From Sphingobium yanoikuyae (GTDB lineage: Bacteria > Pseudomonadota > Alphaproteobacteria > Sphingomonadales > Sphingomonadaceae): a DNA stretch of 64,000 nt. The notes under the pieces are model-generated. The model saw only the letters and a list, made by a program, of their open reading frames with translations, was not told where the DNA came from and did not search any database. Shown in pieces: positions 10,354-25,662 of this stretch. Positions within the stretch are counted from its first letter, which is position 1, and each line of letters begins with the position of its first letter. The DNA is taken from the NCBI RefSeq assembly GCF_034424525.1, contig NZ_CP139979.1, forward strand, positions 1,240,001 through 1,304,000, in the 5' to 3' direction. Position numbers and translations under genes: made by a program.

Positions 10354-10544
10354 CGTGTCATCTCCCTTCATCGTGCAGCACCATCGTGCGCCTGTTTGCA
10401 GGAGAGAAAAGACCTCAGCTAAACCACAACCGGTTTGGACCGGCTGTGCCTTTTGGAAAGGAGGTGCGGCAGGAACATGTGCAGGAAGACCATATCGGAG
10501 GCGGGACTCTCTGCCGGCGCACGTTGGCTGAGGGGAGCGATGTT

Positions 10545-11132
10545 ATGCGCCTGATCGTCAATGCCTTGCGCGCCATCGGCGACACACGCCTTGCAGACGA
10601 AGATCCCTTGCCGCCGAGCGATCGGCTGATCGTCGGTTCATCCCTTGCCCTTGAAGATCTGTATCGCAGCCAGTCGGGGCGGCTGCAGCGCTATTTCGCC
10701 AGCAACCAGGCCCGTCAGGACGCAGCCGACCTCGTTCAGGAAAGTTTCGCGCGCCTTGCTGAAGCCGGACGGGATCCGGCGCGCAGGATCGAAGAGCCCG
10801 AGGCCTATCTGGGCCGGGTAGCGACTAACCTGTTGCGCAATCGCGCCCGTTCAGCCCTCCAGCGATCGCTGGCCCAGCAGATACAAGCAGAGGAAGCAGG
10901 GCTCACCGCACCTGACATGATCGCTGCGCTCGAAGCCCGCGACATGCTGGCGCGGCTGCAGGCGGCGCTGGAAAAGCTCAAACCCAGAACTCGGGAGATA
11001 TTTCTTGCCCATCGCGTCGATGGTATGAGCTATCGGGATATCGCGGCTGCGCAGGGGCTCAGCATCAAGGGGGTGGAATGGCATATGCGCAAGGCAATCG
11101 CGCAGCTTGACCGGGCGCTGCGGGCGCGCTGA
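10545..11132 (+). CDS. FecI-type ECF RNA polymerase sigma factor
   Basis: Extracytoplasmic-function sigma factor of 195 aa that would direct transcription of the receptor/isopeptidase genes when the lasso peptide is sensed. Seen: region 2 (LYRSQSGRLQRYFASNQ, DAADLVQESFARL) and region 4 HTH (REIFLAHRVDGMSYRDIAAAQ, GLSIKGVEWHMRKAIAQL). ATG at 10545 is chosen because GGGGAG lies 8 nt before it and the longer frame from 10386 has no family features. The fecR gene starts 5 nt downstream. Pairing with FecR and an STN-domain receptor is the standard cell-surface signalling arrangement and is found at astexin and sphingopyxin loci (known). Confidence 0.92.
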   Translation: MRLIVNALRAIGDTRLADEDPLPPSDRLIVGSSLALEDLYRSQSGRLQRYFASNQARQDAADLVQESFARLAEAGRDPARRIEEPEAYLGRVATNLLRNRARSALQRSLAQQIQAEEAGLTAPDMIAALEARDMLARLQAALEKLKPRTREIFLAHRVDGMSYRDIAAAQGLSIKGVEWHMRKAIAQLDRALRAR

Positions 11133-11137
11133 CCGGG

Positions 11138-12127
11138 ATGACATCATCCAATAGCGATCCGCTCGAGCAGATTCGGGCGCAGGCCGTGGCCTGGCTCGCC
11201 CGTTTGCGCGGTCCGACCGGTGCGGTCGATCACGCCGCATTCGAAGACTGGTATTGCGCCGATCCGCGGCACGCCGACATCTATGATGCGCTGCTCGACA
11301 GTTGGGACGCCACGGAACAACTGCCTCCCTCCAGATCGGATGATGATCGCAGTCGAGGCAGCGCGACACGTGCTGTTCTGGTTGGCCTTCTGGCTGCCAG
11401 CCTGATCGCCATCATCGGTGCAGGCGTCTGGACGCAGTATCTTGATCGCGATCAGAGAAGCGCGTCGCCCCAATTGGCATCGCGGTACCCCGGGGAACGG
11501 CGCGAGACGGCGCCGGGCCATATCGAGACAATCCGTCTGCCCGATGGCTCACGCGTGACGTTGGATACCGCAAGCCGGATCGACCTTGCCTTTTCGGGCA
11601 CGGAACGGCGCATTCATCTGATCTCGGGCCGTGCCCGCTTTGCGGTCGCGCATGGCGATCCGCGGCCTTTCATCGTCACGGCCGGTGCGCAGGACGTGGT
11701 CGCCCATGGCACGCTCTTCGACATATTCCTGCAGGATGAAAGAGCCGCGATCGCCCTGATCGAAGGAAAGATCGAGGTGCGCCGGACAGATCATGATGGG
11801 GCGTCCCGATTTCTTGCGCCCGGCGAGGTCATGAGGGTTGAGAGGTCCGGGCCCTTGCCCAGGCCCGAACCGGACCGGTCGGCAATCCAGGACTGGCCGA
11901 GCGGCATGCAGCGTTTCACAGATGCGTCGCTCGAAAGCGTGGCTGCGGCCTGTAATCGTTATGCCGCGCATGGGCCGATCATCGTGACTGGGGCACTTGC
12001 CAGCAAGCGGTTCAGCGGCACGCTCGACGTGCGTGATACCAGGGCTGCCGCGCAATTGCTGGCCAGCGCCATGGGCGCGAAGATCGAGGTCGCGGCGGAT
12101 GGCGCGATCCGTCTGATAGAGCAGTAG
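11138..12127 (+). CDS. FecR-type anti-sigma factor / cell-surface signalling regulator
   Basis: Inner-membrane regulator of 329 aa that holds the ECF sigma factor and relays the receptor signal. Seen in order: N-terminal cytoplasmic DUF4880 region (AVAWLARLRG, FEDWYCADPRHADIYDAL), one membrane helix (VLVGLLAASLIAIIGAGVW, about residues 88-106), the FecR domain (IRLPDGSRVTLDTASRIDL, LISGRARFAVAH, VVAHGTLFDI, ALIEGKIEV), and a C-terminal STN-like segment (RFSGTLDVRDTRAAAQLLAS). It sits 5 nt after fecI and 84 nt before the TonB receptor gene, in one apparent operon. Confidence 0.9.
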   Translation: MTSSNSDPLEQIRAQAVAWLARLRGPTGAVDHAAFEDWYCADPRHADIYDALLDSWDATEQLPPSRSDDDRSRGSATRAVLVGLLAASLIAIIGAGVWTQYLDRDQRSASPQLASRYPGERRETAPGHIETIRLPDGSRVTLDTASRIDLAFSGTERRIHLISGRARFAVAHGDPRPFIVTAGAQDVVAHGTLFDIFLQDERAAIALIEGKIEVRRTDHDGASRFLAPGEVMRVERSGPLPRPEPDRSAIQDWPSGMQRFTDASLESVAAACNRYAAHGPIIVTGALASKRFSGTLDVRDTRAAAQLLASAMGAKIEVAADGAIRLIEQ

Positions 12128-12211
12128 AAAAAAAACTGCCAGGGTAGAGGCAAGGTCATCTGTCCTTCCCCTTGAGCCGGCCCGAAAATGGGGTCGGCGG
12201 GGGAGAAGAAT

Positions 12212-14773
12212 ATGAGATCGTCCAATGCCCGTCGCCTGACCTTCCTGCTATGCCTTGCGACGGCTTCGTCGCTTACGCCGGCGATCAGCCGTGCCCAGAA
12301 TCTGCCTCGGCAGGATTATGATCTGCCCGCCCAGTCGCTCGAAGATGCGCTTGATGCGGTATCCACTCGTTCGGGACGGTCGATAGGCGCGCCCTCCGCG
12401 ATTCTGCAGTGGCGGTCCGCACCGGCGCTCAAGGGAAGCTTATCAGCCGAGGAAGCCGTGGCGACATTGCTTGCGCAAAGCGGCCTGAGTTATCGGCTCG
12501 AGGGCAGCGCCATCATCATCGAAGGTCCGGACAAGCTGTCTCCGGCACAGAGGGAAGAGGCCGATCCACTGCTGGTCGTCACCGGGAGCCGCATTCGCGG
12601 TGCGCCGATCGCCTCGCCCGTGATCCGCCTGGAACGCGACAATCTCGTGCGCAGCGGCCAGACCAGCCTTGCCGATGTGGTGCGGAATATCCCGCAAAAT
12701 TACAGCGGCGGGCTCAACCATGGCGTGGGGTTCAACACGGGCAGCAACAATATCGATACCGGTGGCGCAAGCACGATCAACCTGCGCGGGCTTGGCAGCG
12801 ACGCGACCCTGACCCTGCTCAATGGGCATCGGCTGGCCTATAATGGCTCGCGCCAGGGGATCGACGTGTCGGCCATTCCCCTTGGCGCGGTCGAACGCAT
12901 CGAGATTGTCGCGGACGGGGCGTCGGCCCTCTATGGTTCGGATGCAGTCGCGGGCGTCGCCAATATCATATTGCGGCGCGACTATGACGGGTTGCGCTTT
13001 GATCTTGAGGGCGGACTTGCCACGCAGGGCGGCTATTCGCGCCAGCGTTATGGCGCGACCACCGGGCAGCGCTGGGAGGGCGGTGGCTTCATGGCCTCCT
13101 TCGAATATGCCCGCTCCAGCCTTCTCATGTCGGATGAACGGGATTTTGCCGACAGTCGCCCCGGCGTCAGCATCCTCCCGCCACTCGAGCATCATGCTGT
13201 GGCTGTCGCTGGCCATCAGGACCTTACGAGCAACCTCCATTTTTCCGCCGACCTTCTCTACGACCGTCGCACCACCCACACAGTCCAGCCCGGCAATCCG
13301 GCGGGGGACCTGTCGATCAGCCGTTACATCCAGCCGTCGGTCACGCGCTCCTTCGCCATTGCGCCGGCCCTGACACTCGACCTGCCAGGCCAGTGGCATG
13401 TCGGGCTGTCGGGCGTCTATGGCGATGAAAAGCTCACCAGCCGCAATACCTATTATGTAGGCGACACGCCGGTCGCATCCGCCCAGCTCTGCTATTGCAA
13501 TGAAGGCCAATCGGTCGAACTGGCGGCCGACGGTGACCTCTTCCATCTCCCCGCCGGTGCCGTGCGGGTGGCGCTGGGCACCGGCTTTCGCCGCAATCTG
13601 CTCGACGGCAATCAGGGCCCGGGCAATGTCGCCAATGTCTATGCCGTGCAGAAAAGCTATTATGGATATGGCGAACTGAGCCTGCCCTTCGTCTCGCCCG
13701 CCATGGAGTGGGCCGGCATCCATCGCCTGAGCGCCAGCGCCGCACTTCGCTATGAAGATTATCCCGGCATTGGCGACGTGCTGACCCCGAAACTGGGCCT
13801 CATCTATGCGCCCAGCCGGGCGATCGAGGTCAAGGCGAGCTGGGGACGGTCCTTCCGCGCGCCGACCCTCATGCAGCAGCATCAGGCCCAGACCGCTTCA
13901 CTCGCGGCCATCAGCGCCTTTGGCGGAACCGGCTATGGCGCCGATGCTACCGGCCTGCTGCTGAGCGGCGGCAATCCCGAGGTGACGCCGGAAAAGGCCC
14001 GCAGCTGGACGCTGGGCGTGGATATTCATCCTCCCGAGCTTGCCGGGTTGCGGCTGCAGCTCAGCTATTTCAACACCCGCTATCAGGATCGGATCGTCAC
14101 GCCGATCGCGCTCAGCTCCCAATCTTTGCGCGATCCGGTCTATGCCGATTTCATCACCTATGATCCGGCCGATGCGGCCGTCTCTGCGCTCATTGCGCAG
14201 GCGGCGACCTTCACCAACCGGACCGGATCGCCCGTCGATCCGGCCAAGGTGGTCGCGATCGTCAATAATCGCTACACCAATGCCAGCAGCCAGGCGATCG
14301 AGGGCGTCGACATGCTGGCCGACTATGCCCGCCCGCTCGGCAGCGGCACGCTCAATGCGTCCCTTAACCTGAGCTATCTCCATTTCGACCAGCGCTTCCT
14401 GCCCGGCCAGCCGGTGCTGCCGCGGTCGGGGCAATTATTCACGCCGCCCCATTGGCGCGGCCGGGCGAGCCTGGGATGGCTGGACAAGGAGCTCAGTCTC
14501 AACGCCTCCCTGAGCTATATCGGCAGCGTCAAGGACCGTCGCACCAACAATGTCGTGACGGTCGACGGCATGCGCTCGCTCGATCTCACAGCCCGCTACA
14601 CATTGTCGCGCGGCGCGCTTGCAGGCCTGGAACTGGGGCTCTCGGTCAACAATGCGCTCGACGACCGGCCAACGGAAATCGCCAGCACATCCTATATCGA
14701 CAGCACCTATGACTCGACCAATTATGCCCCGATCGGGCGACTGATCACGCTTTCGCTGGGGATGGCCTGGTGA
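12212..14773 (+). CDS. TonB-dependent receptor with STN signalling domain (lasso peptide uptake candidate)
   Basis: Outer-membrane receptor of 853 aa with a signalling N-terminus. Seen: signal peptide ending ISRAQN, STN domain (DYDLPAQSLEDALDAVSTRSG, LKGSLSAEEAVATLLAQSGL), plug (DPLLVVTGSRIRG, LADVVRNIPQN, INLRGLGSDATLTLLNGHR, VERIEIVADGASALYGSDA, GVANIILRRD) and a barrel ending in LSLGMAW with the terminal aromatic residue. ATG at 12212 is preferred over 12188 because GGGGGAGAAG precedes it. The STN domain contacts FecR in this architecture. Its coupling to the isopeptidase gene (GTGA overlap) suggests re-import of the threaded peptide before ring opening in the periplasm (inference from astexin loci). 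Confidence 0.92.
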   Translation: MRSSNARRLTFLLCLATASSLTPAISRAQNLPRQDYDLPAQSLEDALDAVSTRSGRSIGAPSAILQWRSAPALKGSLSAEEAVATLLAQSGLSYRLEGSAIIIEGPDKLSPAQREEADPLLVVTGSRIRGAPIASPVIRLERDNLVRSGQTSLADVVRNIPQNYSGGLNHGVGFNTGSNNIDTGGASTINLRGLGSDATLTLLNGHRLAYNGSRQGIDVSAIPLGAVERIEIVADGASALYGSDAVAGVANIILRRDYDGLRFDLEGGLATQGGYSRQRYGATTGQRWEGGGFMASFEYARSSLLMSDERDFADSRPGVSILPPLEHHAVAVAGHQDLTSNLHFSADLLYDRRTTHTVQPGNPAGDLSISRYIQPSVTRSFAIAPALTLDLPGQWHVGLSGVYGDEKLTSRNTYYVGDTPVASAQLCYCNEGQSVELAADGDLFHLPAGAVRVALGTGFRRNLLDGNQGPGNVANVYAVQKSYYGYGELSLPFVSPAMEWAGIHRLSASAALRYEDYPGIGDVLTPKLGLIYAPSRAIEVKASWGRSFRAPTLMQQHQAQTASLAAISAFGGTGYGADATGLLLSGGNPEVTPEKARSWTLGVDIHPPELAGLRLQLSYFNTRYQDRIVTPIALSSQSLRDPVYADFITYDPADAAVSALIAQAATFTNRTGSPVDPAKVVAIVNNRYTNASSQAIEGVDMLADYARPLGSGTLNASLNLSYLHFDQRFLPGQPVLPRSGQLFTPPHWRGRASLGWLDKELSLNASLSYIGSVKDRRTNNVVTVDGMRSLDLTARYTLSRGALAGLELGLSVNNALDDRPTEIASTSYIDSTYDSTNYAPIGRLITLSLGMAW

Positions 14774-16890
14774 GCGGCGGGCGGACCATGCGCGCTTGCG
14801 CTGCCTTGCTGCTGGGCGCCAGCCTGCTTGCCTTCTGCCCGGATGCCCGGGCTGAGGCATCATGCGCGGATCTCCTGCCTGGCCGGGTCGCAGCGGATGC
14901 ACCGCGCCGGCTGATCAATGCCGACGATCTTGTACGCCTGCGCGATATCGGCCGGCCCGAGGGATCCGCCTTCAGCGCGCCGACGCCGCTCGGCGCATCA
15001 CCCGATGGACAGGAAGTCGCCTTCATCCTGCGGCGCGCCGATCCGGGCTCGAACAGTTACTGCCTGGGTCTGGTCGTGGTGAGCCGCGACGGCGCAGTTC
15101 GGCTGCTCGATCAGGGGGGCGAACTGGCGACAGCCAGTCTGGACGGGGAAGGAGGGCGCATGCCGACCGGTGTCCCCGAAGTCTGGGCTCCAAGCTGGTC
15201 GCCCGATGGCAGGCAGATCGCCTTTTTGCGCCGTGACAGCGGCGTCACCCAGCTCTGGATCGTTCCGGCGGCTGGTGGCAAGGCCCGGGCCATCACCCAG
15301 GGCAAGGTCGATATCGAGGCTTTTGCCTGGTCGGCTGATGGCAGGTCCCTGCTGGTCGCCGCGCGCCCGGCAATCCTGACCGACAGGGCCAGGGTCGACG
15401 CCGAGGGGCTGGGGGGCTGGCTTTATGATCGGCGCGTCGCACCCAATATCGGTGCCCGGCCACGCCCGCCCGTGGGGCTCGCCGTCGAAGTGAGGCTGAT
15501 CGATATCGCAACCGGCGCGGAACGCACGGCGACGCAGGCGGAGGCTGAACAACTTGCAGAAAGCCGGAAAAACGAGCCCTTCGCGCGAGGAAAAGATGGC
15601 CAGCGCGCCTCGCTCTCGCCTGAAAGCGCTGCCCCGCTTAGCCCCGAGCGGATCCATGTGCGTGACCGCGCCGGTCGGGACATTGCCTGTCCGTCGCCGC
15701 TCTGCCTTGGCGATGTTCAGGGCGTCTGGTGGGATGCGCAGGGGCATCTCTATTTTCTGCGGCGCGAAGGGTGGGCCAAGGAGGATATGGTCCTTTACGC
15801 CTGGAACGTCGACGACAGCACTCCGCGGCCCGTCCTGCGCACGCGTGACGTCCTGCTGGGATGTGTGCAGGGCGGCGGCGCGCTCTACTGCCTGCGCGAA
15901 AATGCGACCACGCCGCGCTATCTGGCCCGCATTGCCCTGACCGATGGCAGGGCTGAGAGCCTGTTCGTTCCCAATCCGGAATTTGCCCATATTCGTCTGG
16001 GATCGGTCGAACGGCTGCGCTGGCGCAATGACCGGGGGCTGGCCGCCTGGGGCGATCTGGTCCTGCCGCCCGATGCGCGGCCGGGACAGAAATTTCCGCT
16101 CGTGGTGGTCCAATATCATAGCGACGGCTTCCTGCGTGGGGGGACGGGGGATGAATATCCGATCCAGCTGTTCGCGGCGCGCGGCATGGCGGTTCTCAGT
16201 CTCGAGCGTCCGGCCTTCGTCGCCACCGGCCAGACCGGCCTCAGGACGATGGAGGACTTCAATCGGGCAATGCAGGCCGGTTGGGCCGAGCGCTGGAGCC
16301 TTCTCTCCTCGCTCATGACCGGGATCGACGCAGTGAAGGCGCGCGGCATCGTCGATCCCGACCGGATCGGTATCACGGGATTGAGCGATGGCAGTTCGAC
16401 CGTTCGCTTCGCGCTCATCAATCGGCCGATCTTTGCGGCCGCTTCGATCAGCAATTGCTGCTTTGACGCGAACATGGTCATGATGCAGGCCGGCATTGCC
16501 TTTGCCGACAAGCAGCGAGCCTATGGTCTGCCCCCGCTGACGAGGCCGGATCCCGATCTGTGGCGTCCCTATTCGGTTGCGATGAACGCCGGAAAACTGA
16601 ACCGGCCACTGCTCATGCAATTGTCGGACGACGAATATATCCATAGCCTTGAAGGCTTCACGGCCCTGCGCGAATATGGCCAGCCGGTAGAGATGCATGT
16701 CTTTCCCGGCGAACATCATATCAAATGGCAGCCCGCCCATCGCCGCGCCGCCTATCTGCGCAATCTCGACTGGTTTGCCTACTGGCTTCAGGGCGCGCGC
16801 GATCCTGACCCAGCCAAGCAGGATCAATATGCGCGCTGGGACGCGATGCGGTCGCATGAGGCTACGCCGATATCGGGGGACAGGCCATGA
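14770..16890 (+). CDS. Atxe2-type lasso peptide isopeptidase
   Basis: Prolyl-oligopeptidase-fold serine hydrolase of 706 aa that cleaves the isopeptide bond of a lasso ring (known for Atxe2 and sphingopyxin homologues). Seen: signal peptide (MRACAALLLGASLLAFCPDARA), a beta-propeller with WSPDGRQIAFL and WSADGRSLLVAA blades, and a C-terminal alpha/beta-hydrolase with nucleophile GLSDG (Ser539), acid QLSDDEY (Asp620/621) and His in GEHHIKWQP (His649/650). The GTG at 14770 overlaps the receptor stop; ATG 14788 is an alternative. It ends 6 bp from the convergent cyclase gene. This gene, absent from most other lasso types, marks the proteobacterial isopeptidase clade. Confidence 0.92.
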   Translation: MSGGRTMRACAALLLGASLLAFCPDARAEASCADLLPGRVAADAPRRLINADDLVRLRDIGRPEGSAFSAPTPLGASPDGQEVAFILRRADPGSNSYCLGLVVVSRDGAVRLLDQGGELATASLDGEGGRMPTGVPEVWAPSWSPDGRQIAFLRRDSGVTQLWIVPAAGGKARAITQGKVDIEAFAWSADGRSLLVAARPAILTDRARVDAEGLGGWLYDRRVAPNIGARPRPPVGLAVEVRLIDIATGAERTATQAEAEQLAESRKNEPFARGKDGQRASLSPESAAPLSPERIHVRDRAGRDIACPSPLCLGDVQGVWWDAQGHLYFLRREGWAKEDMVLYAWNVDDSTPRPVLRTRDVLLGCVQGGGALYCLRENATTPRYLARIALTDGRAESLFVPNPEFAHIRLGSVERLRWRNDRGLAAWGDLVLPPDARPGQKFPLVVVQYHSDGFLRGGTGDEYPIQLFAARGMAVLSLERPAFVATGQTGLRTMEDFNRAMQAGWAERWSLLSSLMTGIDAVKARGIVDPDRIGITGLSDGSSTVRFALINRPIFAAASISNCCFDANMVMMQAGIAFADKQRAYGLPPLTRPDPDLWRPYSVAMNAGKLNRPLLMQLSDDEYIHSLEGFTALREYGQPVEMHVFPGEHHIKWQPAHRRAAYLRNLDWFAYWLQGARDPDPAKQDQYARWDAMRSHEATPISGDRP

Positions 16891-16896
16891 TGGACT

Positions 16897-18648
16897 TCAT
16901 TCATGGCGTCCCGGTGCCGAGCGCAACCAGGCTTCGACATCGACCAGCCGCAACAGGCTGCCAATATCGGGTGGCGCCATCGGCACAGAGCTCGAAAAGA
17001 CCCGGGTCAGCCGGGGCAGGTCGATCAGACCCTGATCGGCAAGGGCACCGCCCAGCAGCATGTCCCGCAAGGTGGCATGATGATGTTCGAATATCTCTCC
17101 CTGGAAGGAATCGGGTGTGCCCTTCGACCGCCGCTCGACGATCGCGCGTGGAAGATGGGGCGCAAAGGCCCGACGCGCCAGCGCCCGGTTCCTTCCCTTT
17201 TCGAACCACAGCCAACTGGGGACGGCAAGACAGGCTTCGACCACGGGCTGAGCGAGCAGGGGTAGGATGGTCGGGATGGTCGCCGCGGGATCCCGACCCT
17301 CACTGAAGCTCTGCGCCAGAGCAAGGAGCCGGATATGCCCGGCAAGGCCGGGCAAGGGCCGGGTCGGGGGCGTCAGCCAGGGATGGGCCGGCGGGCTTGC
17401 GCCTGCGCGCGCTTTGGCTTCTTCGCTCAGATAGGCATGATCGGGTCGGGCGATGCTCCTGCGTGCCCAGGGCATCGACTTCGCAAGGGTGGAACGCAGG
17501 ACCGTCGCCATCGGCGCGGAGGCGAGCGTGCTGATTTCGCGCGCGGTGCCGAGCATGCCCGGGCCGGGACCTTCGACCAGCAGCCGGTCGGCGACCGGCG
17601 CTGCCGACTGGAGGGCGCAGAAGACATTGTCGCCACCGCCGCCCGTCATCAGCGCTGCGGCGCCATGGGCGGCTGCGGCAATGTCGACATGCCGCATCGT
17701 TTCCTGTTCGAACAGGCGCCGCGCCGGCCAGGGGAGGCCAGCAGCTGCAGAACGGAGCGGATGGATTTCGCTCACCTCTCGCCGCGCCTCGATGAGCGGC
17801 TTGCCGATATGGTCGGCGACCTGCGCGGCATAGGCGCGTTCGTCGCCGATCGGGTCGCGGGTGTAGAGGGTGAGCAGATCTGCATCATGGCGGGCGAGCG
17901 TTGCCGCGAGGACCGAGCTGTCGAGCCCGCCGGACAGAAGCAGGATCGGACGGCCCCAATGACCTGCCAGGGTCGCGACGCTGTTGGTCACTGCGCGCGA
18001 TATCCGCTCGACATGCTCGTCGCGGGTGAGACATTGTGTATGATCGGCGAACGACCAGGGTGACCAGAGCGGCGCCATATATAGGCGCGCATTGCGGGAC
18101 TGCAGCTTATGGCCCGAAGGCAGCGCCATCACCTTTTCAAGGCAGGTCCAGCTCCCCCGCAGATAGGGCCAGGCGAGATGCTGCGCGATCATGCCCCAGT
18201 CCGTTGCGAAGGGGGCCATACCCGTCCGCTTGAGCAGAGCGATATCGGACGCCACCCATGTGCGCGGCGCCTGATGCATGAACAGGCAGGCCAGGTCGCC
18301 CAGCGGCGCGCGCAGCAGGTCAATTCCTTCATCGGTGCGCAGAAAGGCGACATAGCCGCCCCAGAAAGTCTCGATCAGATGGTGTCCCTGGCTTGCCCTG
18401 ATCTTCGCCTGATCCTCTGGTGCGAGCGTATCCACCGGCCCAGGATGACGGCGGTCAAATAATGGGCCGACAATCAGGCCGGCATCGATCGCCATCGGTG
18501 GCTCGCCCAGCACCAGCAGCGCGAAATCCTTTTCAAGATGGATCTGCACCTCATGGCCTTCATGGACCAGCCGATCGCCGATCCGGCGCATGCGCTCGGG
18601 TGCATCCTCGGACGGCCCAAGCAGCGCAAGATAGCGTTGCAGCGTCAC
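16897..18648 (-). CDS. lasso peptide cyclase (C protein, asparagine-synthetase-like)
   Basis: ATP-dependent macrolactam synthetase of 583 aa that adenylates the ring Asp/Glu side chain and joins it to the N-terminal Gly of the core. Seen: N-terminal glutaminase-like domain without the catalytic Cys at position 2 (WGGYVAFLRTDEG, LLRAPLGDLACLFMH), and the synthetase domain with the pyrophosphate motif LLSGGLDSS (about residues 234-242), LYTRDPIGDERAYAAQVA, and the conserved acidic pair in MTGGGGDNVFC. The GTG start overlaps the B gene stop by 4 nt (GTGA), so B and C are coupled. Confidence 0.93.
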   Translation of the reverse strand: MTLQRYLALLGPSEDAPERMRRIGDRLVHEGHEVQIHLEKDFALLVLGEPPMAIDAGLIVGPLFDRRHPGPVDTLAPEDQAKIRASQGHHLIETFWGGYVAFLRTDEGIDLLRAPLGDLACLFMHQAPRTWVASDIALLKRTGMAPFATDWGMIAQHLAWPYLRGSWTCLEKVMALPSGHKLQSRNARLYMAPLWSPWSFADHTQCLTRDEHVERISRAVTNSVATLAGHWGRPILLLSGGLDSSVLAATLARHDADLLTLYTRDPIGDERAYAAQVADHIGKPLIEARREVSEIHPLRSAAAGLPWPARRLFEQETMRHVDIAAAAHGAAALMTGGGGDNVFCALQSAAPVADRLLVEGPGPGMLGTAREISTLASAPMATVLRSTLAKSMPWARRSIARPDHAYLSEEAKARAGASPPAHPWLTPPTRPLPGLAGHIRLLALAQSFSEGRDPAATIPTILPLLAQPVVEACLAVPSWLWFEKGRNRALARRAFAPHLPRAIVERRSKGTPDSFQGEIFEHHHATLRDMLLGGALADQGLIDLPRLTRVFSSSVPMAPPDIGSLLRLVDVEAWLRSAPGRHE

Positions 18649-19361
18649 AGGATCAGGATCGGCTGATAGCTGTCGACATGCGCGGCACGGTCATTGGCGA
18701 TGAGGCCGTCATGCTCGACCCAGCAATGGGCTGCGAACGGCCTCAGCCGAACCGCCAGGAACAGATCGGCCGCAAGACCCGCTCGAATGAAGGCATGGGC
18801 CAGGGCAAGGGAGCGTGGCAGGCACTGGTCATGAGATCGCAGCACCCGGGCGCTGGCGGCGAAGGCGGCAATGATCGCCAGAGCCTCGTCGGGCGCATGC
18901 CGCCAATTGCGCACGGCGCTCTTGCTGCGTCGCAGCCGCGCAAAAATGCTCGAAAGGCTGCGCACGCGCAATTGGGCGCGGATGGATGTTATGTGGAGGC
19001 TGGCGGCGATCGTCGCGGCGGCGCTCGACCTGTGGTCGCTGGCCTCCAGCCGATCGAGAAGGCTCTCTCCACCGCTTGCGCGCGCTGGACAGGGCATGGG
19101 CGCCGCCGGCGCATCCATCTCGAGCAGCTGCGCATGGCCGATCAGCGCCATGACAGAAGATGCGGGGTCTGGAGAGGCGGGATCAGGGGAGGCGGGGGCA
19201 TCAGAAGCGGGGGCAGGCGATGCCGGGTCGGCCAGGAGGCGCCGGAAACTCTGCTCCGCCGCGGGCGAAAGCCCGAAATAGCGATCCGCCTCGATGTCGA
19301 GAAACACCAATTGTCCCTCGACGTCGCAAAAGCTGATACTGGACTTGAGGCCGATGGCCAT
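18645..19361 (-). CDS. lasso peptide B protein: RRE domain fused to transglutaminase-like leader peptidase
   Basis: Binds the precursor leader and cuts it off. Start ATG 19361 follows AAAGG with 7-nt spacing; the longer upstream frame runs across the precursor gene. Residues 1-83 form the PqqD-like recognition element (SISFCDVEGQLVFLDIEADRYFGLSPAAEQSFRRLL). Residues 130-238 form the cysteine peptidase with Cys180 (SHDQCLPRSLAL), His212 (FAAHCWVEHDG) and Asp224 (IANDR), as in McjB. Odd: residues 45-68 are a low-complexity Ala/Pro/Ser/Asp repeat (units like ASPDP) inserted between the first helix and last strand of the recognition element. The 238-aa length suits the fused proteobacterial type. 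Confidence 0.9.
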   Translation of the reverse strand: MAIGLKSSISFCDVEGQLVFLDIEADRYFGLSPAAEQSFRRLLADPASPAPASDAPASPDPASPDPASSVMALIGHAQLLEMDAPAAPMPCPARASGGESLLDRLEASDHRSSAAATIAASLHITSIRAQLRVRSLSSIFARLRRSKSAVRNWRHAPDEALAIIAAFAASARVLRSHDQCLPRSLALAHAFIRAGLAADLFLAVRLRPFAAHCWVEHDGLIANDRAAHVDSYQPILIL

Positions 19362-19420: not shown

Positions 19421-19546
19421 TCAGTCGTCGGCCAGGCCGACCCGGTCCTGCTGGAGGAATTCGTCCCCATCGATGCCGCCCGGGCCCTGGGTCTGCTCGG
19501 TTGCCGCACCAAGGTCGATGCGCATGATTTCCTCTTCGCGTTCCAT
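19421..19546 (-). CDS. lasso peptide precursor, sphingonodin-like
   Basis: A 41-aa peptide read by hand from ATG 19546, preceded by GAGGAG. Leader MEREEEIMRIDLGAATEQTQ ends with Thr at the penultimate position, the hallmark recognised by B proteins. The predicted core has ring GPGGIDGD and tail EFLQQDRVGLADD. Gly1 would bond to Asp8 (8-residue ring) or, less likely, Glu9. The GPGGI-GD start and LADD end match the pattern recalled for sphingonodin I of Sphingobium japonicum; the middle differs, so this is a distinct sequence. It directly precedes the B and C genes on the same strand. Activity is unknown. Confidence 0.92.
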   Translation of the reverse strand: MEREEEIMRIDLGAATEQTQGPGGIDGDEFLQQDRVGLADD

Positions 19547-19620
19547 CAGCTTCACTCCTCTGCTGCGCCACCAGGATGGTGACAGGCTCGAGTGTATGGC
19601 GCGCGGCGCGCTATCTGCAT

Positions 19621-19650
19621 CTTATACGGATTTAATATCGCGATTATTGC
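19621..19650 (-). promoter_or_regulatory. possible promoter of the lasso precursor operon
   Basis: AT-rich patch in GC-rich DNA, with a TATAAG -10-like hexamer (minus strand, 19626-19621) about 75 nt before the precursor start. The -35 match is weak (GCAATA or CAATAA), so an activator or alternative sigma factor may be needed. No second precursor peptide is visible in the 136 bp after the GntR gene. Confidence 0.3.
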
Positions 19651-19682: not shown

Positions 19683-20276
19683 TCAGTGGGGGCGATAGAG
19701 GGCACGCAATATGGCGCCGGCAGCCCGGCCGCGCCGGCGATGATAGGCGCCGACAAGCGAGAGAAAGTGGCGCCTGTCGGGATGAACCAGCCCCTCTTCG
19801 AGGCTTCCAAGCTCCTCGTCCACGCCCGGCAAGGCATGTGGTTCGACATGCCGGACCGCATGGAGACGCGCTGCCACCTGCTGCATGGCGCGACGATGCT
19901 CGCCATTGTCCGATCCCCGCGCAATCCGGTCGAAAAGCGCGTCCGTGCGATCGGTCAATGTCGGTGACGGCGCCGGCTCGGAAGGTTCGGGCGTCCAGTG
20001 CCGCATCGCCAGCAGGCTGAGTTCATGCGACCAGCGATAGAGATCGATCAGCGACAATTCGTCCAGAAGCGGCAAGTGAAAGCCGCTCCCCGTCCGGGCT
20101 TCGACAAGGCCTTCTCCCATCAGTCGATGCAGCGCGTCGCGCACGGGCGTCATGCTGGCGGCCAGATCCTTTGCCAGCTGTGCCGGATCCAGCCTTGTGC
20201 CAGGAAGATAGGCCCGATCGAGAATTTGCGCGCGTATCGCGTCATAGACGCGCTCGGCGGTCAGCCCGGAGTTCAT
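19683..20276 (-). CDS. GntR-family transcriptional regulator
   Basis: DNA-binding regulator of 197 aa. Seen: an N-terminal winged helix typical of GntR proteins (TAERVYDAIRAQILDRAYLPG, LDPAQLAKDLAASMTPVRDALHRLMGEGLV, RTGSGFHLP) followed by a helical effector domain (DLYRWSHELSLLAM to the end) of FadR/VanR kind, shorter than usual. ATG 20276 overlaps the stop of the PhyH gene (ATGA), which places it in the luxI-phyH transcript. It ends 136 bp before the lasso precursor, so it could regulate that promoter or the dioxygenase product pathway. The ligand is unknown. Confidence 0.8.
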   Translation of the reverse strand: MNSGLTAERVYDAIRAQILDRAYLPGTRLDPAQLAKDLAASMTPVRDALHRLMGEGLVEARTGSGFHLPLLDELSLIDLYRWSHELSLLAMRHWTPEPSEPAPSPTLTDRTDALFDRIARGSDNGEHRRAMQQVAARLHAVRHVEPHALPGVDEELGSLEEGLVHPDRRHFLSLVGAYHRRRGRAAGAILRALYRPH

Positions 20277-21175
20277 CCTGGCACCTGTTGCGCCCGGCAA
20301 TAGGCTTCGACCATCTCGGCCTGCTCGGGCAGCAGGGCATCGCGGGGCCCCGTCATCAGCTCTGGCCCGGCGGTCAGCAATGTCGAGGGACATTGCCCTT
20401 CGAAATTGCCAAGGTTGGGACGGTGCTGGACATAGCCTGCAAGCTTTGCGAGCTCTGGGGAGAAGTGGCGTGCGATCAGAGGCGGATAGGCAAGCCAGGG
20501 ATTTTCATAGGGCTTGAGCCAGCCAAGGCTATAGCCGATCACCACTGCGCGCCGGACCGATCCGCTGCGATTGGCGCCGGCGCCATGCAGCGTCGAGCCC
20601 AGGAACAGGAGGGCTGAACCGGGCGCAAGCACCGGCGCAACCGCCTGTTCTTCTCGGACCTCGCTTCCTTCGATCGCGGCGTAGCCATGGCTGCCGGGCC
20701 AGAGCCGGGTCGCGCCATTGTCGGGATGAAAGGGCGTCAGCGGCCAGATCACGTTGAGAAGATATTCCAACTCGCCCTTGGGCCCGTGAAACATGTCCTG
20801 GTCGCGGTGGGGGGCCTGGGCCGGCGCGCCGGGATCGATGGCAATGGCCTGGGTCGTGTTGAGCTGGACATGATCGCACCAGCGCCCCAGAAACTGCTGC
20901 ACGATCTCCAATATCCGGGCATGGCAGATGAGCGCTTCGCTATGGACAGAGCGCAGCGGCAGGCGGCCCAGCCGCTTGGTCGTCTCGCCATAAAAGGGCC
21001 CGTTGCAATAGGGCGCCTGATCGAACCCCTCTGCAAGATCCTCGTCGAGCCGGGTGATGTGCTGAGCCGTTAGCGCATCGGGCATGATGCACCAGCCGTC
21101 CCGGGCAAGCTGGTCGACATAGGGCTCGAGGGCGTGATCGCAAGCGTCCGCGGCGCGTGTTTGGATCTGGGACAT
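20273..21175 (-). CDS. PhyH-family Fe(II)/2-oxoglutarate dioxygenase
   Basis: Non-haem iron oxygenase of 300 aa related to phytanoyl-CoA dioxygenase. Seen: iron ligands His123 and Asp125 in APHRDQDMF, distal His197 in STLHGAGANRSG, and the oxoglutarate-binding Arg in VRRAVVIGYS. It starts 12 nt after luxI, preceded by AAGGA, and overlaps the GntR gene. A phyH gene next to luxI is a recurrent arrangement in sphingomonads (recalled from comparative work). Possible substrates are a fatty acyl chain, an acyl-homoserine lactone side chain, or a small molecule; modification of the lasso peptide is conceivable but unsupported. Confidence 0.85.
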   Translation of the reverse strand: MSQIQTRAADACDHALEPYVDQLARDGWCIMPDALTAQHITRLDEDLAEGFDQAPYCNGPFYGETTKRLGRLPLRSVHSEALICHARILEIVQQFLGRWCDHVQLNTTQAIAIDPGAPAQAPHRDQDMFHGPKGELEYLLNVIWPLTPFHPDNGATRLWPGSHGYAAIEGSEVREEQAVAPVLAPGSALLFLGSTLHGAGANRSGSVRRAVVIGYSLGWLKPYENPWLAYPPLIARHFSPELAKLAGYVQHRPNLGNFEGQCPSTLLTAGPELMTGPRDALLPEQAEMVEAYCRAQQVPG

Positions 21176-21187
21176 GATGGGTTCCTT

Positions 21188-21835
21188 TCAGGCGCTCGGC
21201 AGGGCTGCGACGAGCAGCGAACGGGAAGGGCGGATGCCCGCTGTCGCAAGCCGATCGGGTGTGGTCGCATCGATCCGGATGGAAAGCGCGCCCAGCATCT
21301 GGCCATCGATCATCTGCGGCAGGCCGAGCAGATGGCATTCCCAGCCAAAGGCCAGAATCTGCGAAAGCCAGCTCATTTCGGCGATCGCCACATATTGGCG
21401 CATATTCCGGGCAAGCCCGTGGTCGACAAGGGCGCAGATGAGGCTGTGGCGGGCCTGGCGCCGCTCGCTGGCACTCAGCCGGCGATCGAGGCAGAAGCGG
21501 GTAATCTCGAAAATATCCGGTCCTTGTGGCGGTTCCTGCTCGCACAGGCATTCGTAAAAGCTGCCAAGAATGTGCGGATGCAGGGTCGGCAAGAGCCGTG
21601 CCGAGGCCAGATGGGCGCCATCCCGATCCGCCAGGATCAGATATTGGGCGCGCGGATCGTCGAACTGATCCACCTCATAACGACCGGCAAGGACCGGCAC
21701 GTCCCATTTGAGCAGATCGACGAAGACCGACTTTCTGGCCGCGAACATGGCGCGCAGCAATGTGTCTTCGGCAAACCCCAGGCCGCCGGCGTCCGGTCCG
21801 CTCCTGGCCTGCGACGCATCATGGATATGCAACAT
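21188..21835 (-). CDS. acyl-homoserine lactone synthase, LuxI family
   Basis: Makes an N-acyl-homoserine lactone signal from S-adenosylmethionine and an acyl carrier. The 215-aa product carries the family's invariant residues in order: Arg34, Phe38 and Trp44 (RKSVFVDLLKW), Asp56 and Asp59 (EVDQFDD), Arg80 (SARLLPT), then Glu110 and Arg113 (FEITRFCLD). Thr is not visible at the position that favours 3-oxo chains, so chain type is open. Start ATG 21835 follows GAGGGAG. It lies 55 bp after luxR on the same strand and 12 bp before phyH. Confidence 0.92.
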   Translation of the reverse strand: MLHIHDASQARSGPDAGGLGFAEDTLLRAMFAARKSVFVDLLKWDVPVLAGRYEVDQFDDPRAQYLILADRDGAHLASARLLPTLHPHILGSFYECLCEQEPPQGPDIFEITRFCLDRRLSASERRQARHSLICALVDHGLARNMRQYVAIAEMSWLSQILAFGWECHLLGLPQMIDGQMLGALSIRIDATTPDRLATAGIRPSRSLLVAALPSA

Positions 21836-21890
21836 GGCTCGACTCCCTCTTGAAATGGGAGCCGAACATCATCGCGCTGGCGTGCCGCCG

Positions 21891-22667
21891 CTACGTACCG
21901 AAAGATGTATCGCGATAGCCGTAGATTTCCGTGATGCTGAAGGTTCCGTCCAACAATGTCGGGGCCAGAAGCATGATCCGCTTGTTGACCCGATAGCGTG
22001 CACAGGCGTTCAGGATATGGCGTTTGACCGTTCCTTCGGTGACCTTGAGGATCTGGCTGATCTCCCAGTCGCTCTTGCCGCGAAAGGCCCACAAAAGGCA
22101 GTCGCGCTGGCGGCGGGTCAGGATGCGGCCGAGCATCGGCAGTCGCAACGCCTGTCTTCCGATCAGCCGGCGCGCGCCGTCAAAGGCGAAACGGCCCGCA
22201 ATCTCGGCCAAGGCGAGCCATGCGCTGTCGAGCGGGCGGCCCGAACGCATGGCAAAGGTGCAGGAGCCGGGCATTTCGCCTTCGATACGGATCGGGATGG
22301 TGAACCCGTCGCCGATCCCCTGGCTCGCGCCCAGGCGCAGCATATGGCGATCGCGCGCGGTCAGATCGATATAGTCGCCTATGCGTGCCCAGGGAAAACC
22401 GCCCGGTGCGACATGGCTTGCCCGGTGGATCGGATCGCAGATGCCCAGCGCATGCCGGGCATAATAATCGGCCCATTGCGCGGGATAATTGTGCAGATGC
22501 ACCGCCTCTTCGCCCGCGCTGCGCGGATCGACATGATGGGTAAGGGCGAAATAATCGAAATTGAGGCCCTGCGTCAGAGCCGCCATGGCCTCACGGTAAT
22601 CCTCGAGCGTTGCGGCGTCCTGAACCTGCCGGGTCAGCTGTTGCAGCAGAAAATAGTCTGGCTCCAT
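21891..22667 (-). CDS. LuxR-family quorum-sensing transcriptional regulator
   Basis: Signal-responsive activator or repressor of 258 aa. The N-terminal autoinducer-binding domain has the expected Trp/Tyr/Asp-Pro/Trp set (QWADYYARHALGICDPIHRA, GGFPW, and the strand SGRPLDSAWLALAE). The C-terminal LuxR HTH is LTRRQRDCLLWAFRGKSDWE, ISQILKVTEGTVKRHI. ATG 22667 is preferred to the TTG at 22673. It is first in a same-strand series luxR-luxI-phyH-gntR-lasso genes. No convincing lux box was found by eye upstream of luxR or luxI. Confidence 0.9.
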   Translation of the reverse strand: MEPDYFLLQQLTRQVQDAATLEDYREAMAALTQGLNFDYFALTHHVDPRSAGEEAVHLHNYPAQWADYYARHALGICDPIHRASHVAPGGFPWARIGDYIDLTARDRHMLRLGASQGIGDGFTIPIRIEGEMPGSCTFAMRSGRPLDSAWLALAEIAGRFAFDGARRLIGRQALRLPMLGRILTRRQRDCLLWAFRGKSDWEISQILKVTEGTVKRHILNACARYRVNKRIMLLAPTLLDGTFSITEIYGYRDTSFGT

Positions 22668-22891
22668 AGTCAAATGGCGGCGCGAGCGGCGTCTTGGGAT
22701 GCCGGCGACCCCGCACCCAACCCCTTTCCGATGTACAAGCCGGCGACAGGGGTCTCATGCCTCCCGCAGGCGACCAAAACTGTCACGAAAATGTCATATG
22801 TTGCGACGCAGCGCAAAGTCTCATTGTCGGGGGATGGACAGGCCATGAGGCGGTCATGGCTATGCCCGCCATGCCGTAGCGTATTTCTTGC

Positions 22892-23663
22892 ATGAGCCCG
22901 ATCGGCGCCTGGCGCGACGGGCGGATTTATGCCCGCCTCATGGGAATCGATCGGGCGGGACTCATGTGGGAATGGCTGCGGCGCGACAGTGGCTATATCG
23001 CCTGGTACGCCGGAGCGCGCGCCAGCACGCATGGGCCTTCCGATCCTGACCAATGGGGGCTGCATTTTCGCCGAACATCCCGACGTCCCGGCCCCGGACG
23101 CGCGGATCTTATGGCATGCCGATCGCGATCCTGAAATATTGCGTCTGTCCTTGCTGCCGGCGGGGAAGGGCGATGGTGACGGCCTCGACCCGGCCGCATG
23201 GAGGGAGTTTCTGACCGTCGGGGAAGGTCCGAAGGGATGTGAGCCTCTGCTTCTTTCCGATGGTTGGCGCCGGATCCGTCTCGATATTGTCGAGGGCAGT
23301 CTCGCCATGGCGCCGCCACTGCGCCCCTTGTTCCACATCGAGGGCGTTTCCTCCGCACGCGGTCCGCTCCGCGCGCTCAATCGCTTCCTCGATTTCCTGT
23401 CGCACCGCCGCTTGCGGCCCGCGCTCTATCCCGCCGAGCCGCGCATGGCGCGCTGGCTCCTCTTGCTGCGCGTCCAGGACGCGCTGCAAGAGGGGGCGTC
23501 GCATCGTGATATCGGCATTGCCCTGTTCGGTGCCGATCGCGTCGCGATCCAGTGGGATGGTCCGACCGATGCGTTGCGATCGCGTGTCCGCCGGCTCGTA
23601 CGCGACGCGCAGCATATGGCCAGCGGTGGGTATCGGCAATTGTTGGGGCGCGATCCGGACTGA
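22892..23663 (+). pseudogene. DUF2285-domain protein, frame broken by one extra T
   Basis: Member of a protein family carried by alphaproteobacterial integrative elements, probably a DNA-binding regulator. The first frame gives the family start (GRIYARLMGIDRAGLMWEWL, RRDSGYIAWYAGARAS, DPDQWGLHF). The following frame carries the rest (AEHPDVPAPDARILWHADRD, LRPLFHIEG, DFLSHRRLRPALYPAEPRMARWL in part, DGPTDALRSRVRRLVRDA). The switch falls in CATTTTCGCC near 23063-23067: with one T fewer, GLHF joins AEHP in frame. It is therefore a one-base insertion, a sequencing error, or less likely a slippage site. Confidence 0.8.
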
Positions 23664-23831
23664 GAGGCGAAGCGCCCGTCGAACGGCAGGGCGATTTCGA
23701 CGCCCGAAGCGGGCCCTGCGATCGCTGATAATCTGTCGAACTGGTACCTCTGTCGCAGGGGCAAGCACTTTGCGCTGCAATGGCATGGCAGGGATCGCGC
23801 CATGTGCCAGGGAGAAGACACGGCTGGCGCC

Positions 23832-23888
23832 TTGCGGGCGCGATGCGCCCGCAACCCCGCTCTTGCGCGGCGCGTCGTGACGCGCCGC
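23832..23888. repeat. two adjacent perfect hairpin palindromes in the 540-bp gap before ardC
   Basis: Arms TTGCGGGCGC / GCGCCCGCAA with a 3-nt loop (23832-23854), then GCGGCGCGTC / GACGCGCCGC with a 2-nt centre (23867-23888). No T-run follows either. The gap 23664-24203 holds no recognisable gene; it contains these palindromes and a leader shared with the DUF736 gene. Confidence 0.6.
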
Positions 23889-24021
23889 TGCCGAGCCCGC
23901 CGGCGGTCTCGGCCATGCGGCGGCGATCGGGTGGCGCAGGGCGCGGCGCGCGCGCCGCACGCAGCGGTCGCGGCGCACGCGCCGCGGCGTTTTCGGGGAT
24001 GGTCCTCCCTTTCAAGCGGGC

Positions 24022-24160
24022 CATGGGCTCCTCCGCCCTGCTAGGCCAGGGCCGGCCGCAGACAAGCCTTCGGCTCCTCCACTTTCGTTCCGGCCCTGCG
24101 GGTGCATGCGGCCGGCCCCGGCCTCACGCCGTGCGTCCTGTCGCCCATCCCCCGCTTTCC
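24022..24160 (+). promoter_or_regulatory. conserved leader upstream of ardC, also found upstream of the DUF736 gene
   Basis: The segment with CGGCCCTGCGGGTGCA followed by T-GCGGCCGGC recurs at about 28590-28617 with one mismatch. In both places it is preceded by ATGGGCTCCTC and followed some 30-40 bp later by TGTCGCCC. Both copies end shortly before the ribosome binding site of an element gene. A shared RNA structure or operator is likely. Confidence 0.5.
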
Positions 24161-24203
24161 GGGGGATCCATGATGAGGAGTGGGCGGTGTCAGGAGGCTT
24201 GGC

Positions 24204-25229
24204 ATGACCTTTGTCCACAAACGGCGCGGCCGGACCACGCGCGAGACAGCGCAGGGGGATGACCTCTATGCGCAGGTGACCCGCAAGATCATCGGCGAAC
24301 TGGAGGCCGGACGCCTGCCATGGGTGCAGCCCTGGGGCAGTGCAGGCGGACCGTCTCCGGCCCTGCCGCGCAATGCGCTCTCGGGACGCTGCTATTCGGG
24401 AATCAATATCCTCATGCTCTGGGGCGCCGTGATCGAGGGCGGTTGGCCTAGCCAGAAGTGGATTACCTACAAGCAGGCCATCGCGGCGGGTGGCTGTGTG
24501 CGCAAGGGCGAGCATGGCACGATGGTCGTCTATGCCGACCGGTTCGTGCCTGCCGAAGCCGGGGCGCATGGATCGGAGCCGCTGGGGTCGGCAGGGTCTG
24601 GCGAGACCGGACCCAGGGAAAGGGACGGGACGCCGCGCGCCATTCCCTTTCTCAAGCGCTTTACCCTTTTCAACGTCGCCCAGTGCGAGGGCCTGCGGTC
24701 CGACATCGCGGGCGATCCCGCGCCGCTGCCCGAACGGGAGATCGTGCCCGAGGGCGAGGCGCTGATCGCGGCCAGCGGCGTTCCCTTCTCCATGGGCGGT
24801 GACCGGGCCTTTTACGCGCCCGCACTTGATCGGGTGCAGGTGCCGCCGCAACCGGCTTTCTTTGATCAGGTCAATTTCTATCGGACCTGTTTTCACGAAC
24901 TCTGCCACGCGACCGGCCATCCCGCCCGGCTGGCCCGCGATCTTGCCCATCCCTTCGGCAGCAAGGGCTATGCCCGCGAGGAACTGATCGCCGAAATGGG
25001 CGCCGCCTTCCTGTGCGCGAGCCTCGGCATCGCCCCGACCGTGCGCCACGCCGACTATATCGGCGGCTGGCTCGAACTGCTGCGCGATGATCTGAGCGAT
25101 GATCCCCATGTGCGCGGCGCGGGAAGCCCGCGCGGGCGCGCGATATTCCGCGCGGCCAGTGCCGCCGGGAAGGCCGCCGACTGGCTGCTTGCCCGCTATC
25201 ATGACGCGCGGACCGGACAGGCGGCGTGA
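24204..25229 (+). CDS. ardC: ArdC-type antirestriction / ssDNA-binding protein with zincin domain
   Basis: Protects incoming single-stranded element DNA and shows antirestriction activity in characterised ArdC proteins. The 341-aa product has the N-terminal ssDNA-binding domain (DLYAQVTRKIIGELEAGRLP, WVQPW, SGRCYSGINILMLW, WITYKQAIAAGGCVRKGEHG, KRFTLFNVAQCEGL). The C-terminal zincin-like metalloprotease has the HExxH motif in FHELCHATGH and the downstream acid in YAREELIAEMGAAFLCA. ATG 24204 is chosen for AGGAGG 7 nt upstream. A standard gene of conjugative elements. Confidence 0.88.
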   Translation: MTFVHKRRGRTTRETAQGDDLYAQVTRKIIGELEAGRLPWVQPWGSAGGPSPALPRNALSGRCYSGINILMLWGAVIEGGWPSQKWITYKQAIAAGGCVRKGEHGTMVVYADRFVPAEAGAHGSEPLGSAGSGETGPRERDGTPRAIPFLKRFTLFNVAQCEGLRSDIAGDPAPLPEREIVPEGEALIAASGVPFSMGGDRAFYAPALDRVQVPPQPAFFDQVNFYRTCFHELCHATGHPARLARDLAHPFGSKGYAREELIAEMGAAFLCASLGIAPTVRHADYIGGWLELLRDDLSDDPHVRGAGSPRGRAIFRAASAAGKAADWLLARYHDARTGQAA

Positions 25230-25357
25230 GGGGCATCGACGCCTCGACCCGGCCCGGCCCCCCTGTCAACCCGCCCGCCCGGCTGGCCATCCGACCGTGG
25301 ATGCGACAGGCCGGGCGGTCGGCGCCCATCCGCGCGGCTGTGCCGCCGTCCGGCTAC

Positions 25358-25409
25358 GCCCCGCCCGCAACCTGTCGCCGGATCGCCGATGTCCGGTTGC
25401 GGGCGGGGC
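25358..25409. repeat. 15-bp perfect inverted repeat in the gap before parB
   Basis: Arms GCCCCGCCCGCAACC (25358-25372) and its complement (25395-25409) with a 22-nt spacer, in the 433-bp gap 25230-25662 that holds no recognisable gene. It could be a hairpin in the parB leader, a parS-like site for the downstream ParB protein, or a transfer-origin feature; no nick-site motif could be recognised. Confidence 0.6.
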
Positions 25410-25662
25410 ATGTTCGCGCGCGCGGTCCGCCCGACACATGCGCGCGCCCGGGTAGCTGAAACTGCGACGAGGTCGCGGTCATCTGCCCTCTGCGCTCTGG
25501 CTTCATGCATCCCGGCATGCGTCCGGGCCCGCGATACGCCGAGCAGGTCCGCAATTTTCCGCAGGCGGTCCGGGGAATGAAGAAAATCGACATGGCGTCG
25601 GCGGCCATAAGCGCGCCCGAAAGGGGGCGGAGCGGTCCGACGCTCAACAAGGATATTGACCC

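Follow-up and report, generated by a model that had tools for sequence, protein, structure and literature searches.

A sphingonodin-like lasso peptide locus beside a luxR-luxI-phyH-gntR module in Sphingobium yanoikuyae, with possible quorum control

Bacteria that produce isopeptidase-type lasso peptides seem also to import and cleave them. As set out in passages of a lasso peptide review, the clusters uncovered share a gntR gene before the precursor, with TonB and sigma/anti-sigma genes after the isopeptidase (PMC9266682). The closest described peptide, sphingonodin I from Sphingobium japonicum UT26, is given as GPGGITGDVGLGENNFG in a review table (PMC12427821). A separate group of papers concerns the acyl-homoserine lactones (AHLs) of sphingomonads, parts of which report that phyH adjoins luxI (PMC3704786) and that, in Novosphingobium subterraneum, three LuxI proteins in the novR-novI-phyH arrangement make medium-length AHLs, gntR following phyH at one of the loci, novI-Nsub3 (PMC5012321). 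The present locus joins these two bodies of work, neither of which mentions the other in the passages searched: the AHL papers have phyH and gntR beside luxI, and the lasso review has gntR before the precursor. The word ‘lasso’ is absent from the main text of PMC3704786, PMC4288048, PMC7432010, PMC11024222, PMC6163740 and PMC5012321; the main text of the last also lacks ‘asparagine’, and the neighbours of its quorum loci may appear in its figure. Among the matches listed in a literature search, made in a library mostly without subscription papers, the pairing of lasso peptides with quorum sensing is unreported.

The locus described here lies in a 64,000-nucleotide stretch of the 5.5 Mb genome of Sphingobium yanoikuyae (NZ_CP139979.1, positions 1,240,001 to 1,304,000), the whole of which we call the window. 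On balance we favour the view that it is a complete, probably working sphingonodin-like lasso locus under quorum control, the control by AHL being the part that we infer. What can be seen directly in the DNA is the gene set, its order, the intact motifs and, across 26 genera, the recurrence of a luxI module at no more than 30 kb from loci of this kind. The peptide itself joins a known lasso type; the surprising part is its quorum-sensing partner.

An earlier sequence-only reading had proposed a 41-residue lasso precursor at 19421..19546 on the minus strand, and translation confirms it. The gene, A, has its ATG at 19546 and its stop at 19421-19423, with a GAGGAG ribosome-binding site 8 bases before the ATG. 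Read from 19555 to 19421, the minus strand gives VKLMEREEEIMRIDLGAATEQTQGPGGIDGDEFLQQDRVGLADD and then the stop; the 41-residue form begins at the ATG at 19546, and the precursors of genus relatives likewise start with MER or ME. The precursor consists of the leader MEREEEIMRIDLGAATEQTQ and the core GPGGIDGDEFLQQDRVGLADD (codons 19424-19486, minus strand). Both the threonine claimed for the penultimate leader position (-2) and the claimed Gly1 with Asp8 and Glu9 in the core are present, as in a class II lasso precursor. The protein scores 43.8 bits against the Pfam Subterisin model PF24178 (cut-off 27), and precursors of this type were found in none of 14 control genomes; it narrowly missed the NCBIfam benenodin model NF033522 (31.9 bits against 33) and is not filed there.

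The core is identical to sphingonodin I at 12 of 21 positions, including the ring start GPGGI.GD and a tail ending in GL.DD; among its differences are Glu9-Phe10, Gln12-Gln13 and an Arg located in loop or tail; the likeness that had been noted, with a different loop and tail, thus stands. Matches to the precursor at E <= 0.01 occur in 21 of 94 genomes of the genus, the best besides the window's own being 55% identical, and the nearest core noted among the fetched family loci is GPGGQPADEFLGQDQTGLTDD of L170, identical at 14 of 21 positions. The protein database holds one entry, P0004, with an identical core and one leader change, in a cluster that may include the window's own protein, and a metagenomic entry, P0005, with Asn8 for Asp8, Glu9 retained, 20 of 21 core residues in common and four leader changes. 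The core GPGGIDGDEFLQQDRVGLADD is absent from the papers searched (again a library mostly without subscription papers), a plasmid collection searched with the precursor gave no match, and a search of PDB sequences gave nothing relevant. The proposal of a new peptide holds, and we conclude from its predicted core that the peptide is a novel sibling of sphingonodin I within the known lasso type. Elsewhere in the family, tandem precursors with different cores share one locus (L064, L142, L152, L160, L168, L177, L179 and L180).

As had been claimed, A stands directly before the genes for its enzymes: B starts 59 bases past the stop of A, and there is a four-base overlap between B and C. The B gene (18645..19361, minus strand) encodes a leader peptidase with a C-terminal transglutaminase-like domain (PF13471, 67.7 bits; NF033537, 66.1 bits, cut-off 33), the N-terminus of which gives a weak PqqD-like match under its cut-off. 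The C gene (16897..18648, minus strand) encodes an asparagine-synthetase-like lasso macrolactam synthetase (PF00733, 83 bits, cut-off 21) with the SGGLDSS loop present; its scores against the NCBIfam lasso cyclase models are under their cut-offs. By sequence, the precursor with its adjoining B and C genes marks this as a class II lasso locus. The facing strand carries a lasso peptide isopeptidase of the AtxE2 family (14770..16890, plus strand; NF033523, 791.6 bits, cut-off 400) with the nucleophile motif GLSDGSS. Its residues 41-696 align at 480 bits with the solved AtxE2 (PDB 5TXC), in which respect the locus resembles the AtxE2 loci of the astexins in Asticcacaulis excentricus. The gene for a TonB-dependent outer-membrane receptor (12188..14773, plus strand; PF00593, 109 bits; PF07715, 62.2 bits) overlaps the start of the isopeptidase gene, and on the same strand lie genes for a FecR anti-sigma/sensor (11138..12127; PF04773, 65.6 bits) and a FecI-like ECF sigma factor (longest ORF 10386..11132; PF08281, 50.9 bits; PF04542, 28.7 bits). 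With a GntR gene before A, this is the isopeptidase-type proteobacterial locus that had been recognized, and the arrangement of A-B-C facing isopeptidase-TonB-FecR-sigma is that of the sphingonodin I locus. To judge from these genes, the locus is probably complete and working.

Upstream of A on the same strand lie, in turn, gntR, phyH, luxI and luxR. The GntR-family regulator gene (19683..20279, minus strand; PF00392, 56.4 bits) is 136 bases from the precursor ATG and downstream of phyH, which encodes a phytanoyl-CoA dioxygenase-like Fe(II)/2-oxoglutarate oxygenase (20273..21175, minus strand; PF05721, 95.4 bits). Next come the genes for a LuxI-type AHL synthase (21188..21835, minus strand; PF00765, 73.6 bits, cut-off 24) and a LuxR-type autoinducer receptor (21891..22667, minus strand; PF03472, 81.8 bits, cut-off 23; PF00196, 40.6 bits), the latter with its ATG at 22667 and a TTG upstream at 22673. 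The signature residues Arg34, Phe38 and Trp44 of LuxI, which are invariant in all 14 aligned lasso-linked LuxI proteins, and the autoinducer-binding and GerE domains of LuxR identify a LuxI/LuxR AHL pair. The order luxR-luxI-phyH is the one described in parts of the Novosphingobium papers, as is a gntR after phyH in the case of novI-Nsub3 (PMC5012321; PMC3704786). The locus L055, which encodes the sphingonodin I core exactly, plus LSDD, is likewise lux-linked, with luxR-luxI-phyH-gntR upstream. A role for PhyH as a lasso-tailoring oxygenase was set aside because phyH accompanies luxI also where no lasso genes are seen (L113, L114, L115, L117, L118, L119 and L122). Nor do we claim a lasso-specific clade of LuxI: in a LuxI tree of 110 rows the lasso-linked proteins do not fall on one branch, and the lasso label requires 15 changes against a shuffled mean of 26.5.

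How often luxI and lasso loci are found together was counted from both sides. In the genus there are 14 LuxI relatives, 62-69% identical to that of the window; for eight of them a lasso precursor or its cluster is found at a distance of 4 kb or less, the sphingonodin I locus L055 being one of these close cases, and for two at about 6 kb. The 20 kb examined around each of the other four (G466, G391, G144 and G423) contain no lasso genes. For the family, named genomes were scanned with a LuxI alignment, and the best 80 of 199 confirmed stretches were kept. Within the stretch examined, lasso B and C were present at 60 of these 80 loci, on the luxI strand in 59 of the 60, and GntR at 75; because the loci were selected for likeness to lasso-linked LuxI, this proportion does not extend to LuxI at large. 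At least four of the remaining 20 have lasso genes farther off: 67 kb from luxI in Sphingobium sp. SYK-6 (L225/G144), 22 kb in S. phenoxybenzoativorans (L235/G423), 63 kb in Sphingosinicella sp. LHD-64 (L236/G297) and 19 kb in Sphingomonas sp. LaA6.9 (L271/G215).

For the count from the lasso side, 397 genomes sampled evenly across the family were searched with PF24178, and 68 of them gave matches. Surroundings were collected for 81 loci, 79 of which have B and C in the stretch examined while two lack B or C; tandem precursors were merged by hand, and four weak matches (G052, G260, G054 and G324:C2) were left out. Among the 79, luxI lies within 6 kb in 31, at 6-12 kb in 13, at 12-30 kb in nine and at 30-80 kb in four; in 13 none was found, which for L178 and L188 (G057 and G163) means none within about 10 kb, and in nine the contig ends. 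Thus 53 of 79 lasso loci, from 50 genomes and 26 genera (genus codes copied by hand), have luxI within 30 kb. By a rough estimate, with one or two luxI per genome of 3-5 Mb, chance would pair them at this distance in a few per cent of cases. The loci share ancestry, and so the counts are not independent events. The module is found either before A, as in the window, or beside the sigma gene at the far end (e.g. L288, L289 and L290), from which it follows that it has moved or been re-gained, and kept. As a genomic association the recurrence of the luxI module beside lasso loci is strong; as a mechanism we infer it. A class-wide isopeptidase search, in which at most three candidates per genome were scored, was positive in two of 385 genomes, including the one that holds the window, and therefore says little on families outside Sphingomonadaceae. 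L287, an isopeptidase locus of a different family within the class, had no luxI in the 20 kb examined, which run from about 6 kb before B to 4 kb past sigma; it is a single case.

Between gntR and A lies a conserved lasA promoter element, GATATTAAATCCGTATAAGATGCAGATAG (19611..19639, minus strand), which is a candidate regulatory site. Its consensus, CCGTATAAAGTTCGGAT, was drawn from module-bearing loci; 12 of 17 positions or better were counted as a match. The count took only the first precursor of each locus, provided that 150 or more bases preceded it, and frames that had matched the precursor pattern falsely were removed by hand. The copy in the window scores 13 of 17, as does one other match at 12927 (plus strand), inside tonB, and a stricter pattern has no match in the window. 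Of the 61 loci in which the lux module precedes A, 48 have the element and 13 do not; it is also present in four of six with luxI 12-35 kb away. Where no luxI was found or the contig ends, it occurs in two of 28 loci. That it accompanies the lux module generally is ruled out by the loci whose module sits at the far end (one of ten) and those with luxI 35-80 kb away (none of three); being nearly absent from far-end loci, it marks one arrangement and not the presence of luxI as such. The element fits a regulator of the adjacent module, either GntR or LuxR, as an association among related loci and not a proof. GntR may bind it, which would leave the role of LuxR indirect. It is no textbook lux box; the NNCT-N12-AGNN rule for such boxes was judged too loose to apply. 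Where the module is unlinked or at the far end (e.g. L062, L128, L145, L158 and L161), A+T-rich repeats of the ATTATAA type replace CCGTATAA upstream of A, and this motif is perhaps the site of another regulator. The interval between gntR and A also holds insertions of about 2-5 kb in L056 (transposase-like by eye), L104, L107 and L171, and one of about 20 kb separates gntR from the precursor where L296 and L063 (G423) are concerned; breaks thus recur at the point where the module joins the lasso operon.

A second possible control point lies before luxI. The hairpin CGGCTCCC-ATTTCAAGA-GGGAGTCG (21840..21864, minus strand) contains the likely luxI ribosome-binding site in its 3' arm, and its fold has z = -3.93 against shuffles. 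An arm able to pair with the Shine-Dalgarno sequence is present in 37 of 92 luxI leaders, against 7.6 expected after shuffling, and in 24 different arm sequences. The same count in control leaders gave three of 90 for phyH (5.7 expected), two of 48 for gntR (2.4), one of 59 for tonB (4.1), three of 24 for the isopeptidase (2.4) and four of 30 for B (2.1). Arms that differ and still pair suggest an RNA feature rather than a protein site, and the hairpin is a possible RNA thermometer or other translational switch.

The scheme that we favour would run as follows. LuxI would make an AHL, and LuxR with bound AHL would activate its own operon as cell density rises; GntR or LuxR, acting at the element before A, would then have the precursor, B and C made at density. 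B would cleave the leader after ...TQ, and C would join Gly1 to Asp8, or with lower probability to Glu9, in a ring that encloses the threaded tail. The exported peptide would bind the TonB receptor and signal via FecR to the ECF sigma factor, to be followed by import and opening by the isopeptidase. If the peptide is taken up, sensed and opened in this way, its role is more likely that of a recyclable signal or carrier gated by cell density than that of an antibiotic. A wider proposal, which we offer tentatively and with more doubt than conviction, is that most isopeptidase-type lasso peptides of Sphingomonadaceae, together with a LuxR/LuxI system nearby, form a two-signal density circuit: AHL would gate synthesis, with the hairpin holding luxI translation, the exported lasso peptide would act as a second, slower signal via TonB-FecR-sigma, and the isopeptidase would erase it. 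Such a circuit, if true, would give lasso peptides a family-wide function. Because the quorum module is kept beside many lasso loci of the family, the question of their purpose becomes directly testable; the pairing may explain why producers are silent in some cultures, and it offers a simple switch for such loci. Lasso peptides have been proposed to contribute to the use of phenanthrene by Sphingomonas BPH, on the basis of a B2 protease gene that is interrupted (PMC11006600), and quorum sensing is described as controlling the degradation of polycyclic aromatic hydrocarbons in Croceicoccus (PMC7432010); a link between the two is speculation.

The locus might instead be an ordinary one, ruled by GntR and FecR/sigma alone, in which luxR-luxI-phyH are passengers with no control of the peptide. 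This would accord with the review, which treats GntR, TonB and sigma/anti-sigma as near-constant partners in the passages concerned and has neither ‘quorum’ nor ‘LuxR’ in its main text (PMC9266682), with the 13 of 79 loci where luxI was not found nearby, with the existence of luxR-luxI-phyH where no lasso genes are in view, and with the absence of the promoter element from nine of ten far-end loci. Passengers would not, however, be expected to lie within 30 kb of 53 of 79 lasso loci in 26 genera, to be found at either end of the locus, and hence to have been moved or re-gained and kept, or to share one promoter element in 48 of 61 loci where they precede A; we regard a passenger module as rather unlikely. 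Much more remote is the prospect that the locus is decayed or silent, a transposon having severed the sigma operon from its promoter so that the peptide is neither made nor sensed. An IS110-family transposase gene (9193-10371, minus strand) does start 14 bases before the sigma ORF, and the sigma operon may have lost its native promoter, but the insertion lies at the opposite end from A, B, C and the lux genes, and the reading frames are all open, with scores above their family cut-offs except for those named above as missed (the benenodin and cyclase models and the PqqD-like match). Quorum control of a working locus remains the reading that we prefer.

A comparable choice concerns the ring. 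The cyclase is expected to require a carboxylate, and the window core offers two, Asp8 and Glu9. Acids at these positions were surveyed in 122 unique cores from lasso loci, with precursors found by pattern; LuxI tail ends and other frames that matched the pattern were removed by hand, and precursors missing it are uncounted. Position 8 is acidic in 111 cores, among which position 9 varies widely; ten have no acid at 8 but one at 9, and a single core, which may be a false call, has none at 7-9. Both positions are acidic in 26 of the 122, as in the window. Because position 8 is so constant and position 9 so variable, Asp8 is the likelier ring closer, and we think it quite probable that it closes a ring of eight residues. 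The ring of sphingonodin I is taken to close on Asp8. To go by the review table (PMC12427821), that residue is the only acid of sphingonodin I at 7-9, and position 9 is Val. A nine-residue ring through Glu9, with Asp8 an ordinary ring residue, seems rather improbable against these numbers, yet P0005 replaces Asp8 by Asn8 while retaining Glu9 and 20 of 21 core residues, and ten cores that lack an acid at 8 carry one at 9, so that nine-residue rings fit this enzyme family. P0005, however, comes from a single metagenome contig and could reflect an error or an inactive gene. The eight-residue ring through Asp8 that had been put forward is thus favoured by the survey and questioned by the Asn8-Glu9 of P0005, a near-identical core on account of which the doubt first raised over Glu9 stands.

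Some further features of the genome may be recorded. A Mutator-family transposase gene lies farther left of the IS110 gene (6232-7428, plus strand). To the right of luxR, the interval 22929-27804 (plus strand) encodes a RovC-type DNA-binding protein, an ArdC-like antirestriction protein and a ParB-domain protein, and the locus looks as though it adjoins a conjugative element. Outside the window, the same genome has a second lasso locus, L073 (G000:C1:4714621-4714749), with the core GVLLIGQDDGNGTLYKASGISDED; its isopeptidase is divergent (145 bits, under the cut-off), and it lies 61 kb from a luxI-like gene with an in-frame TAG.
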